Source: Pseudidiomarina gelatinasegens | GTDB taxonomy: Bacteria > Pseudomonadota > Gammaproteobacteria > Enterobacterales > Alteromonadaceae | Assembly (NCBI RefSeq): GCF_004025325.1 | Contig: NZ_RSFE01000002.1 | Location: forward strand, 186,001-250,000 | Reading direction: 5' to 3' | Length of the DNA stretch: 64,000 nucleotides | Shown: piece by piece, positions 30,616 through 34,258 of the stretch | Layout: each line of letters begins with the position of its first letter | Numbering within the stretch: the stretch's first letter is position 1 | Notes under the pieces: generated by a model | What the model was told of the DNA's origin: nothing | The model's input: only the letters and a program-made list of their open reading frames with translations | Databases searched by the model: none | Position numbers and translations under genes: made by a program

Positions 30616-31959
30616 ATGGCCCTAAAATCTCCTGCTTTTTCATCGCGAATTGGATTTATTCTAGCTGCTGCGGGCTCTGCCGTCGGTGTAGGTAACATAT
30701 GGGGGTTTCCAACCCAAGCCGCACAAAATGGCGGTGGTGCGTTCTTATTGGTTTATCTACTCATGGTTGCCCTACTCGCTTATCCAATGTTAGTTGCTGA
30801 ATTAACCATTGGCCGTATGCGTCAACGCAACCCGGTAGAGGCGCTGCGCGCACTCAGCGACAAACCGTTTTGGCGTAATTTCGGTGCGCTTACCGGAATT
30901 GTTGGCCTTGTGGTTTTGTCGCTCATATTGAGCTTCTATGCAATTGTGTCAGGTTGGCTTCTGGCATTTATGTTCGCGCCGTTAGCCGAACTAATGGGCT
31001 TTACTGCAGCAGCAACTTGGTTGACCGACTTTAGCGTGCAGCGCAACATGATCATGATGGTACTGTTTCTAGTACTCACCGTGCACGTTGTTCGCTCAGG
31101 CGTAACCGATGGTATCGAGCGATGGTCACGCCGCTTAATGCCGTTGTTGTTTGTTTTATTAATAGCTATGGCACTCTATATTCTTACGCTTCCAGGCGCT
31201 ATTGATGGCTTAAAGATGTACCTGACACCTGACTTTGAACAGGTCACCAACCCCAATCTCATTATTCGTGCCATGGGCCAAGCATTTTTCTCGCTCAGTT
31301 TGGGTGTATGTTGCATGATGACCTACGGTGCTTATTTATCAAAAGACGAGCATTTACCGCGCACCGCAGGTTGGGTTGCTGGGCTTGATACCTCAGTCGC
31401 ATTTTTGGCGGGCCTCTTGATCCTACCAGCAATGTTCGCTGCACAAGAACTAGGCGTTGAAATCTACGATCAAGCCGGTCAACTGCTTTCCAGTGACACG
31501 CTGGTATTCAACGTACTACCGGCAATGTTCGAATCGATGGGCTATGTCGGTTTATGGGTGGGTCTCGCGTTTTTCGCGTTGATGGTCATTGCCGCAATCA
31601 CCTCATCCATTTCTATGTTAGAAGCACCGGTTAATGCATTGGTTGAAGAAACCGGGCAGTCTCGTGCCCAAATGGTTTGGGTGGTAGGTGCAACAATTGG
31701 CTTAATTTCGTCGTTAATCATTTACAATTTTTCAGCCTTGTTCGGTGCGGTAGTGACACTTACAACCGTATACATGCAACCCCTACTCGCACTCATCTTT
31801 GGTCTGCTATTAACTTGGGTACTGCGTCAAAACTATTTACTGAAAGCCCTGCAAGACGGCGCGCCAGAAATGGAATCAAGTTGGTTTTGGAAAATCTGGC
31901 CATGGTACGTGAAGTTTATATGCCCAGTATTGATTTTACTGGTTATCTGGCGTGGCTAA
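30616..31959 (+). CDS. Neurotransmitter:sodium symporter family transporter (LeuT-like)
   Basis: A 447-aa integral membrane protein with about 11-12 transmembrane helices. The NSS signature is clear at the N-terminus: RIGFILAAAGSAVGVGNIWGFP, with the unwound TM1 that binds substrate and Na+, followed by NGGGAFLLVYL. The substrate is probably an amino acid; tryptophan, leucine or tyrosine transporters exist in the family and I cannot tell which applies. It is co-directional with sppA-ansA. No U-rich terminator exists on this strand after it. Confidence 0.9.
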   Translation: MALKSPAFSSRIGFILAAAGSAVGVGNIWGFPTQAAQNGGGAFLLVYLLMVALLAYPMLVAELTIGRMRQRNPVEALRALSDKPFWRNFGALTGIVGLVVLSLILSFYAIVSGWLLAFMFAPLAELMGFTAAATWLTDFSVQRNMIMMVLFLVLTVHVVRSGVTDGIERWSRRLMPLLFVLLIAMALYILTLPGAIDGLKMYLTPDFEQVTNPNLIIRAMGQAFFSLSLGVCCMMTYGAYLSKDEHLPRTAGWVAGLDTSVAFLAGLLILPAMFAAQELGVEIYDQAGQLLSSDTLVFNVLPAMFESMGYVGLWVGLAFFALMVIAAITSSISMLEAPVNALVEETGQSRAQMVWVVGATIGLISSLIIYNFSALFGAVVTLTTVYMQPLLALIFGLLLTWVLRQNYLLKALQDGAPEMESSWFWKIWPWYVKFICPVLILLVIWRG

Positions 31960-31988
31960 GTCTCTATAAAATCAGCTGACATTCGTAA

Positions 31989-32026
31989 TAAAAAAAGGCT
32001 CGGGACCAATCCAAGTTGTCCCGAGC
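31989..32026 (-). terminator. Rho-independent terminator on the minus strand
   Basis: GCTCGGGAC (31998-32006) pairs with GTCCCGAGC (32018-32026) across an 11-base loop. A7 at 31991-31996 and its neighbours give a U-run only for minus-strand transcripts. It lies 120 bases beyond the tatD stop. It could end the tatD operon, the candidate small RNA, or both. Confidence 0.85.
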
Positions 32027-32083
32027 TCAGGGGAATGGCTCAAGGGATTGAGCCGTGCGCTAACTCGATAAATGTCGAGGGTA
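31989..32083 (-). ncRNA. Candidate small RNA (or tatD 3' UTR-derived RNA)
   Basis: Three hairpins stand in a row on the minus strand: CTCGA/TCGAG (32064-32079), a perfect 7-bp stem with 4-base loop (32037-32054), and the terminator stem (31998-32026) with its U-run. A promoter-like pair lies just upstream: TTCGCA (32113-32118), 17 bases, TACAAT (32090-32095). Initiation near 32083 would give an RNA of about 95 nt. It contains no convincing ORF. I do not recognise it as a known sRNA. It may instead be the 3' UTR of tatD. Confidence 0.45.
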
Positions 32084-32089
32084 AGATTT

Positions 32090-32118
32090 ATTGTAGACAT
32101 AAATTTACCAAATGCGAA
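32090..32118 (-). promoter_or_regulatory. Putative promoter for the candidate small RNA
   Basis: The minus strand reads TTCGCA (4/6 to the -35 consensus), a 17-base spacer, and TACAAT (5/6 to the -10 consensus), between the tatD stop and the hairpin cluster. A promoter here would be pointless for tatD itself, which ends upstream of it. Confidence 0.4.
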
Positions 32119-32145
32119 TTTTTTGTGTAAAAAACGTACAAAAAA

Positions 32146-32928
32146 TTATTTGCGCACGTGCTTAAACAATGAATAAAAGTTTTGCGTCGTAACTTTTGCC
32201 ACTTCAGCGAGGCTCAAACCTTTCACGTCCGCGACGCATTTAGCTACATCAACCACATAAGCTGGCTGATTTTCTTTGCCACGGTGCGGCACCGGTGCTA
32301 ACCAAGGGCTGTCCGTTTCAATTAACAATCGCTCTAGCGGTAATGCCTGCACCACTTCGCGCAGTTCGGTCGCGTTACGAAACGATGCTATGCCCGATAT
32401 CGAAATATAGAAATCAAGATGTTCAATGGCCTGCTGCGCCATTTCAAGTGATTCAGTGAAGCAGTGTAAAACGCCTCCACAGCGCTGCGCCTGTCCCTCA
32501 CGTAACATCGCAATGGTGTCCTCACGCGCATCTCGAGTATGAATGATCAACGGTTTATCAAGCTCATTTGCGAGTTCAATATGGTACGCAAAGCTATCTT
32601 GCTGAATAGGACGGCTCTCCGGATCGTAAAAATAATCCAAACCCGTTTCGCCAATGGCAACTACTTCCGGCTCTGCAGCCCATTTACGTAACTGGTTGCG
32701 GTCAAGCGGATGCTTAGCAACGTACAACGGATGCACACCGCAGGAAATACTTACATCTGGGAAATCAGCAACTTGGTTGCGCATGGCAGGAAAATCATCA
32801 AGGGTCACGCCAATACAAAGCATGTGCTCTACTTTTGCTGCGCGCGCAGCTTGAACAATTTTAGAAAATTGCCCATCGAAATTTTTTAGGTCTATTTTGT
32901 CAAGATGACAATGGGAATCGACAAACAC
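32146..32928 (-). CDS. ycfH: TatD-family metal-dependent hydrolase (YcfH)
   Basis: A 260-aa TIM-barrel hydrolase of the TatD DNase family. The metal ligands are visible: VDSHCHLD at the N-terminus, GETGLDYFY, IIHTRDA, HCFTES and ETDSPWLAP. The holB-pilZ-tatD position identifies it as the YcfH type. The family has 3'-exonuclease or D-aminoacyl-tRNA deacylase-like activities, unresolved for this member. It is the last gene of the long minus-strand block. Confidence 0.92.
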   Translation of the reverse strand: MFVDSHCHLDKIDLKNFDGQFSKIVQAARAAKVEHMLCIGVTLDDFPAMRNQVADFPDVSISCGVHPLYVAKHPLDRNQLRKWAAEPEVVAIGETGLDYFYDPESRPIQQDSFAYHIELANELDKPLIIHTRDAREDTIAMLREGQAQRCGGVLHCFTESLEMAQQAIEHLDFYISISGIASFRNATELREVVQALPLERLLIETDSPWLAPVPHRGKENQPAYVVDVAKCVADVKGLSLAEVAKVTTQNFYSLFKHVRK

Positions 32929-32948
32929 AACAACTCCTCTAGGATGTC

Positions 32949-33311
32949 TTACATGGTGGCGGTTGGCGTGCCCGTATTACCTATCGCAGCAAGCTTCGAT
33001 TCAATCATATTTTTCAGCATCGCTTTATCATCGATAAACTGAACGCCAACGCCCTGTTGCTCTGGGCGCCCCGGCTTTGATGGAGCTAACCAGACGACTT
33101 TGCACTTCACAAAAACCGAATTTTGTTCACCAAACAAACGTACCTCCAACAGAAATTCATCACCATTTTTCAGAGGTTCATCTGTTGTTAGAAACAAGCC
33201 CCCACCTTTGATAAATGGCATGTAATAGCGCCGCAGCTGGGCTTCAGTGCCCAACACGATACGTTTTTTCGGTAACGCGGCCTCTGCTTGTGCTACGGTT
33301 TGTGTTTCCAT
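32949..33311 (-). CDS. pilZ: PilZ domain protein, type IV pilus PilZ type
   Basis: About 120 aa. The sequence RRYYMPFIKGGGLFLTT and the C-terminal GVGVQFID match P. aeruginosa PilZ, which also lies next to holB. Like that protein it lacks the RxxxR and D/NxSxxG motifs needed for c-di-GMP binding: the second motif is replaced by FIKGGG. It therefore probably acts through protein partners in type IV pilus assembly. The start is either ATG 33311 or GTG 33320; both overlap holB's 3' end. Confidence 0.88.
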   Translation of the reverse strand: METQTVAQAEAALPKKRIVLGTEAQLRRYYMPFIKGGGLFLTTDEPLKNGDEFLLEVRLFGEQNSVFVKCKVVWLAPSKPGRPEQQGVGVQFIDDKAMLKNMIESKLAAIGNTGTPTATM

Positions 33312-34258
33312 TGTAACCACTGTTGTTGTAATAGTAATGGTACGTTTAAGCCAGCTTGTTCACTTGTTGTTTTGCGCAAATTGTAACATAAAGCAAGCCA
33401 AGCATTGATTTCAGCAACGGTTATCTGTTCTCTTTGCAGCCAATCGACAGCGAGTTGATAGCTGCCCGGAAATCTTAAGCGCTGCTGTGCAACGCGTTGT
33501 TTAATCCGAATTAACTCATGCAACCATGCTTCGCTTGCATCGAGCCAGCCAGCCCAATCACTCTTAGTTGGCAAAGGCCACTTGCTATCTACGCAACAAG
33601 CCTGAGCCAAACGCCCAACATAGTCAATGTTATCACTAACTTCGCCTTTTAATGCGGCAAGAGCATGTAAAGGTGCACCTAAAAACTGTTGGCTACGCAA
33701 TTGCTCTTCAGGCGTTAAACTGCGTCCTAATTGTTGCACCAGCCACGCTTCAATCTCCGGCCAGCTCGGCTCATTTAATGTGTGCAGCCGCATGCGACTG
33801 CGAATCGTTGGCAACAGCGCACTGGTACGCTCAGGGCTCAAGATAATATACGTGTTTGCGGTAGGTTCTTCGAGTGTTTTTAACAGCGCGTTTGCAGCTT
33901 CTGTGGTCATGCGTTCGGCATTTTTTATCCAAGCCACTTTTGCACCATGCTGGCTTGCTGTCTGCTGCAATGCCTGAGTGAGCTCACGAATTTTATCCAC
34001 GCCGATGGCACGATTATCCTCGCTACGAAGCACGTAGTAGTCTGGGTGTGTTTCAGATTGAACCAGCAAGCAGCTTTTACAGCGCCCACAAGCACGTTGT
34101 GTTGGTTGTAAACACAACAAATAATGCGCCAAGGCTTGGGTGTATGCCTCAGCCCCCAAACCTTCACGTGCTGGAATGCAATGTGCATGACCAAAGCGTT
34201 GTTGCTGGTAATCTGAAACAACCTGCCGCCACGATTCACGCAACCAAGGTAAACTCAT
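33293..34258 (-). CDS. holB: DNA polymerase III delta' subunit HolB
   Basis: A clamp-loader subunit of 321 aa. It has the zinc-binding cysteines CGRCKSC after a first cysteine at CLQP, the ALLKTLEEP helix, and sensor-1 region YIILSPERTSALLPTIRSR. The usual SRC motif reads SRM here, the arginine being kept. The N-terminal P-loop is degenerate, as expected for delta'. It is 12 bases downstream of tmk, and its end overlaps pilZ. Confidence 0.92.
   Translation of the reverse strand: MSLPWLRESWRQVVSDYQQQRFGHAHCIPAREGLGAEAYTQALAHYLLCLQPTQRACGRCKSCLLVQSETHPDYYVLRSEDNRAIGVDKIRELTQALQQTASQHGAKVAWIKNAERMTTEAANALLKTLEEPTANTYIILSPERTSALLPTIRSRMRLHTLNEPSWPEIEAWLVQQLGRSLTPEEQLRSQQFLGAPLHALAALKGEVSDNIDYVGRLAQACCVDSKWPLPTKSDWAGWLDASEAWLHELIRIKQRVAQQRLRFPGSYQLAVDWLQREQITVAEINAWLALCYNLRKTTSEQAGLNVPLLLQQQWLQWKHKP

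Follow-up and report, generated by a model that had tools for sequence, protein, structure and literature searches.

A predicted SdsR (RyeB) small RNA gene beside a TatD-family gene in Pseudidiomarina gelatinasegens

The short region between a sodium-dependent symporter gene and a TatD-family nuclease gene of Pseudidiomarina gelatinasegens carries, on the minus strand, a promoter-like pair followed by three hairpins and a U tract. The first-pass annotation of this DNA had read the region as a candidate small RNA of about 95 nt. Is the element an RNA gene, from which strand would it be made, and to which family does it belong? The analysis covered the surrounding stretch of 64,000 nucleotides (the window) together with related loci of the genus, the family and the order. 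From sequence evidence we conclude, with a probability of about 0.94, that the element encodes SdsR (RyeB), a small RNA that acts by base pairing. This conclusion is based on covariance-model membership, the core, the family-wide covariation of the terminator, a promoter-like element, and the presence of rpoS and hfq genes.

Identity of the element and layout of the locus

On the minus strand, positions 31990–32092 were matched by the Rfam model RF00111 (SdsR_RyeB); the score was 61.7 bits, for a gathering score of 38, and the E value in the window was 6.1e-9. The model of SraC/RyeA, RF00101, which belongs to the same clan, matched the plus strand as a mirror image of the RF00111 match with 52.7 bits (gathering score 37), and no other Rfam family reached gathering level in the 64-kb window. 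The gene is present as a single copy in its own genome (one RF00111 match), as is usual for this RNA although the Rfam definition does not require it. It includes the conserved core, hairpin 2 and the intrinsic terminator of the family, and the RNA is an ordinary RF00111 member that standard Rfam annotation would name. Both rpoS (456.6 bits) and hfq (99.9 bits) were detected in the genome with scores over the cut-offs.

The minus strand had been chosen correctly in the first-pass annotation, as the RF00111 match lies there, and the promoter-like pair, the three hairpins and the U tract were all found in place. The pair consists of TTCGCA (32118–32113) and TACAAT (32095–32090) separated by a 17-base spacer. 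The 5' end of the transcript was placed about 8 nt after the -10 because the 5' boundary of the Rfam match (32092) would overlap the -10, and transcription would thus start near 32082, as deduced from the position of the promoter. With this start, the sequence supports a stand-alone minus-strand RNA of about 93 nt with a promoter and an intrinsic terminator, close to the length first proposed. The features of the locus are the following:

30616..31959, plus strand: sodium-dependent symporter gene facing sdsR (PF00209, NF037979)
31986..32115, plus strand: mirror-image match to RF00101 (SraC/RyeA); no promoter of its own or strong terminator seen
31990..32082, minus strand: SdsR (RyeB) small RNA, predicted transcript of about 93 nt (RF00111 match; deduced 5' end)
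31990..31996, minus strand: terminator U tract, seven T, one base past hairpin 3; also the expected contact of Hfq
31998..32026, minus strand: hairpin 3, the intrinsic terminator stem, 9 bp with an 11-base loop; double-sided changes in 7 of the 9 pairs
32037..32054, minus strand: hairpin 2, 7 bp with a 4-base loop; five basal pairs identical in all 34 aligned sequences
32050..32063, minus strand: near-invariant core TTAGCGCACGGCTC, 14 nt, letter-for-letter as in E. coli SdsR; probable seed
32064..32079, minus strand: hairpin 1, 5 bp with a 6-base loop, lineage-specific; absent from the consensus fold of 11 relatives
32090..32096, minus strand: extended -10 of sigmaS type, CTACAAT; at the same distance in Pseudidiomarina and concentrated upstream of sdsR
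32113..32118, minus strand: -35-like TTCGCA with an A tract before it, TTAGCA in several relatives (consensus scan and relatives)
32146..32928, minus strand: TatD-family nuclease gene (YcfH type), a recurrent neighbour of sdsR (PF01026, TIGR00010)

The stop codon of the symporter gene is 30 bases from the sdsR U tract. On the other side, an A+T-rich inverted repeat is located at 32119–32145, between the stop of the TatD-family gene and the -35 of sdsR, and its sequence is kept in the loci L009, L017, L032 and L033. The repeat is a candidate for a weak terminator serving either strand, or for an upstream promoter element. The neighbour first labelled tatD does belong to the TatD family, but it resembles PRK10812, the YcfH model (326.9 bits, under the cut-off of 438), more closely than PRK10425, the model of TatD proper (130.7 bits). 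The protein is 86% identical to its counterpart in Pseudidiomarina marina and also to that of one gammaproteobacterial MAG.

Fold, covariation and promoter

The 93-nt RNA folds at -32.7 kcal/mol while the mean of the shuffled sequences was -20.5 (z = -3.86), and none of the 200 shuffles equalled it. Also the plus strand folds well (z = -4.25). In a 4-kb stretch, the consensus scans found six promoters (5.1 expected) and five terminators (4.6 expected from shuffles), neither number being above chance, and therefore the relatives had to decide. It is the Rfam match and the conservation that raise the promoter and the terminator above chance. If the element consisted of chance hairpins or of a plain bidirectional terminator, such scan results would be expected and the converging symporter and TatD-family genes would be a natural setting, but the E value of the Rfam match, the conservation and the covariation described below, as well as the plus strand having no T run after the hairpin, make this explanation next to incredible. 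Chance hairpins as such were rejected on the Rfam match and the covariation.

Covariation was studied from an alignment of 34 sequences, consisting of the window and 33 of 38 extracted sequences; left out were three duplicates, one near-duplicate, and one sequence replaced by the identical sequence of the window. The window's own copy among the loci, L012, was not included in the alignment. The extraction pattern had failed to pick up five further loci (L015, L022, L026, L028 and L030), each of which matches the model built from the 34 sequences.

The core was nearly invariant, with one position differing in three of the 34 sequences. The middle stem had been described in the first-pass annotation as a 7-bp helix with a 4-base loop, reading GGGA on the plus strand, and it is present as such at 32037–32054. 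Its upper two pairs vary over the 34 sequences and the last one is unpaired in ten of them. Altogether nine of the 16 pairs of the structure had changed on both sides, and double-change cells numbered 50, against 16.7 (sd 3.0) in the shuffles. When the pairing partner was shifted by one to three columns, pairing dropped from 93.8% to 20.9–51.3%, a comparison biased in favour of the true register as the structure was derived from the window itself. None of the 500 shuffles reached the observed pairing, the double-change cells or the covariation score, while the number of double-changed pairs was reached by 11 and the number of pair types by 22 of them.

The covariation that the first-pass annotation had proposed looking for in the stems was thus found in the terminator across the family, but the 11 closest relatives included no pair with a double-sided change (0 of 16). 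The suggestion that the hairpins form a selected fold was upheld for hairpins 2 and 3 and failed for hairpin 1, which is outside the consensus fold of these 11 relatives. All three hairpins as a single conserved fold were accordingly rejected, the consensus retaining only hairpins 2 and 3, and hairpin 1 is a local trait.

Two peculiarities were observed in other copies. In one locus from a genome of the family (G040, L020:1467–1537), a 22-base unit comprising the beginning of the SdsR core forms a repeat of 3.2 copies with 100% matches, which runs into the core and may represent a multiplied seed region. In the three Colwellia copies L089:2904–2967, L093:3795–3856 and L105:3809–3871, the CCATTCCCCT linker is worn down.

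An extended -10 resembling CTACACT marks sigmaS promoters. The Pseudidiomarina relatives have CTACACT or CTAAACT at an equal distance from the RNA, and CTACAAT of the window differs by one letter from the commonest form. The pattern CTAnRMT was present within 130 nt upstream of the core in 63 of the 76 distinct regions, whereas random segments of the same loci gave a mean of 5.0 (highest 10) and shuffled upstream regions a mean of 12.7 (highest 20). On the sdsR strand of the 76 loci, altogether 293,453 bases, CTACACT occurred 36 times; 33 of the occurrences fell in the 160 nt preceding the core, and another two were located 164 and 187 nt upstream of it. The pattern CTAnRMT was absent within 130 nt in the remaining 13 of the 76 regions, including six high-scoring loci of enterobacterial type (L172–L177), and the motif therefore does not strictly define the family. 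The promoter sequence of sdsR thus appears sigmaS-like and conserved, and sigmaS dependence is predicted.

Distribution, neighbours and orientation

RF00111 was detected in 127 of the 147 genomes of the family (E up to 0.001), in 122 of them over the cut-off, and in 100 of the 197 genomes of the order, in 92 of them over the cut-off. No match was found in 20 of the family genomes or in 97 of the order genomes, in searches run with stricter filters by which weak copies can be missed. Within the genus, a match was present in five of five genomes, among them the own genome. In a separate genus of the data set (g7; genomes G006, G055, G090, G118 and G142), none of the five genomes searched had one.

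From the 80 TatD-family loci that were fetched, 20 were scanned with Rfam, and RF00111 was found in 14. The model built from the 34 sequences likewise had matches in 14 of 75 sources, four of which (the window, L029, L058 and L077) were in the model's own alignment; it found no sdsR within the fetched flank of the Vibrio loci among the 75. In all 12 loci of Pseudidiomarina/Idiomarina type (L032–L043), sdsR comes after the TatD-family gene on the same strand, while in L067 (Aliagarivorans) and L077 (Colwellia) it is on the opposite strand. A diverged SdsR was detected in Aliidiomarina haloalkalitolerans (L044:3838–3916); it scored 49.6 bits with our own model and fell below the gathering-level listing of Rfam.

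Three loci (L071, L088 and L100), in which the match lay about 2 kb away from the gene or on its wrong side, were removed before the loci were counted. In 18 loci, including the own locus L012, sdsR is located on the 3' side of the TatD-family gene, co-directional with it (17 distinct upstream sequences, L009 and L033 being identical), and in 36 loci, with 36 distinct upstream sequences, it is convergent to a ycfH/tatD-like gene. L044 of Aliidiomarina is one further convergent case, and in 23 loci the TatD-family gene was outside the fetched flank. These counts are not numbers of independent events, because also other loci may be near relatives of each other. The convergent loci span four families of the order (f1, f6, f9 and f15) as well as TatD-family-gene relatives; the co-directional loci that carry a name are all from Pseudidiomarina, Idiomarina or Idiomarinaceae, in addition to one MAG.

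In L036, L032 and L044, the TatD-family gene and an asparaginase gene converge and sdsR is placed between them, pointing with the TatD-family gene in L036 and L032 and with the asparaginase gene in L044. The simplest reading of these sequences is that sdsR was flipped in place in an ancestor of Pseudidiomarina and Idiomarina. No description of the placement beside a ycfH/tatD-like gene or of the flip was found in the open-licence papers searched.

The orientations bear on the possibility that SdsR has no promoter of its own and is mainly cut from the 3'UTR of a row of tmk-holB-pilZ-ycfH-like genes, presumably an operon. In the window the RNA does come after the TatD-family gene and shares its strand, and nothing but the A+T hairpin was seen between them. 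However, the promoter-like element just upstream is conserved, and in the 36 convergent loci of other lineages sdsR is on the opposite strand and therefore cannot be cut from the mRNA of the TatD-family gene there. Such processing is thus a highly improbable source of the RNA, and transcription from its own promoter is the reading followed here.

The gene facing the 3' end of sdsR varies among the relatives. It is a symporter gene in the window, L033/L009, L035 and L041 and an asparaginase gene in L017, L032 and L036. Instead of a facing gene, seven loci (L034, L037, L038, L039, L040, L042 and L043) have a same-strand open frame of 380–542 codons, and three of these (L038, L040 and L043) also list a short facing frame of 110–138 codons. 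For the window, the listing of facing frames gives an overlapping 100-aa frame, and the 30-base distance to the symporter gene was taken from the window sequence and its genes. Because the facing gene changes between relatives, a conserved role as the 3'UTR of the symporter mRNA, offered as an alternative in the first-pass annotation, is unlikely, and it was dropped as a candidate function.

More generally, the plus strand could be the functional one, either as an antisense RNA resembling RyeA/SraC or as a symporter mRNA 3'UTR that folds into the same hairpins and is sequestering or stabilising. The RF00101 score and the good fold of the plus strand agree with this, and the consensus scan found no plus-strand terminator at 31397–33711; with the symporter stop so close to the U tract and only the A+T hairpin as a nearby terminator, antisense read-through is possible. 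On the other hand, the minus strand scores higher and owns the U tract, the plus-strand match mirrors the same stems, and the facing gene (symporter, asparaginase or a same-strand frame instead) is not conserved. We therefore regard a plus-strand function as very unlikely, SdsR on the minus strand being the preferred reading.

A broader proposal can be made from the arrangement of the loci, although we consider it speculative and rather unlikely. According to it, several families of the order have kept sdsR beside a ycfH/tatD-like gene, where it is able to flip in place, and a dedicated RyeA RNA would not be required as its antisense partner. This part would be played in most of the lineages seen by the convergent ycfH mRNA, through its run-off 3' end, and in Pseudidiomarina, after the flip, by the 3' end of whichever gene faces sdsR, here the symporter gene; housekeeping transcription in the growth phase would then hold SdsR low until growth stops. 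Several flipped relatives are without any facing gene, which counts against a 3' end as the antisense partner. The flip of sdsR beside a constant neighbour is a natural experiment on the importance of the antisense RyeA strand.

Proposed function and comparison with known systems

According to PMC6610125, SdsR of E. coli is made mostly by the sigmaS polymerase and RyeA by sigma70, each lowering the other; RyeA, a dedicated RNA about 270 nt long, has a sigma70 promoter of its own, and SdsR acts on tolC, mutS and yhcB. PMC10954441 reports that SdsR lowers yeaGH in nitrogen-starved E. coli. For Salmonella, PMC4014581 lists SdsR among the sigmaS-controlled RNAs and describes a cost in stationary-phase fitness from deletion of the SdsR locus, in which SraC was removed too.

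Extrapolating from the E. coli and Salmonella members, the sigmaS RNA polymerase would make SdsR when growth slows, with transcription beginning near 32082 and ending at the U tract at 31990. Hfq would bind at the 3' terminus of the RNA, and mRNAs would be repressed through pairing with the exposed core (GAGUUAGCGCAC...). SdsR of the present genome should do the same kind of work with targets of its own.

Sites complementary to the core were not enriched in the five genus genomes, where 96 were found (the five sdsR loci included) against 83 for the reversed control pattern. The start regions of mutS (found in 5/5 genomes), tolC (5/5) and zapG, also called yhcB (4/5, L132 giving no entry), paired with the RNA no better than 51 start regions of the window, the only exception being one mutS of the five that was in the best 14%; the test used duplex energies without accessibility, and the 51 regions were taken at the first ATG. 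All five genomes have a partly complementary site inside the coding sequence of mutS, at about +1553 to +1571, with three mismatches in the own genome and one, two, four and four in the others, and its similarity was taken as protein constraint. With the PrkA model, used for the E. coli target yeaG, the match was limited to about 53 positions, in frames of 787–820 aa that were taken as Lon. The E. coli target sites in mutS, tolC and zapG are thus not supported here by sequence, with which pairing elsewhere would be compatible. No SdsR target in these small-genome marine bacteria was found in the open-licence papers searched.

The present results place a well-studied stationary-phase small RNA in small-genome marine bacteria and indicate which of its parts are held, namely the core, hairpin 2, the terminator and the promoter type, and which are free to change, namely the 5' domain, the neighbours and the orientation.

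For comparison, a 112.4-bit RF00111 locus that matches 5375 of 5426 E. coli genomes was used as the query to find the sdsR stretch of E. coli. This stretch lies between yebY and pphA in the E. coli record, where it carries no annotated feature. The synteny with yebY in enterobacteria is described in PMC5913331; the yebY/pphA neighbourhood, which the Rfam definition does not include, is not present in the window, where a YcfH-type TatD gene and a symporter gene flank the RNA. SraC/RyeA has its counterpart in the plus-strand match over the gathering score, the mirror image of RF00111, but while RyeA of E. coli has its own promoter, simple and weak scans of the plus strand of the window revealed none, only the A+T hairpin. 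Between E. coli SdsR and the element of the window, the 5' domain is not conserved, that of the window being short and unrelated, with a lineage-specific hairpin; the letters of the terminator stem differ, and the E. coli target sites lack support in the window organism. Common to E. coli and the window are the 14-nt core, most of hairpin 2 and the CCATT-CCCT linker after it, and the E. coli and Salmonella RNAs share with that of the window an intrinsic terminator, a length of about 100 nt, and a promoter with a sigmaS-like -10.
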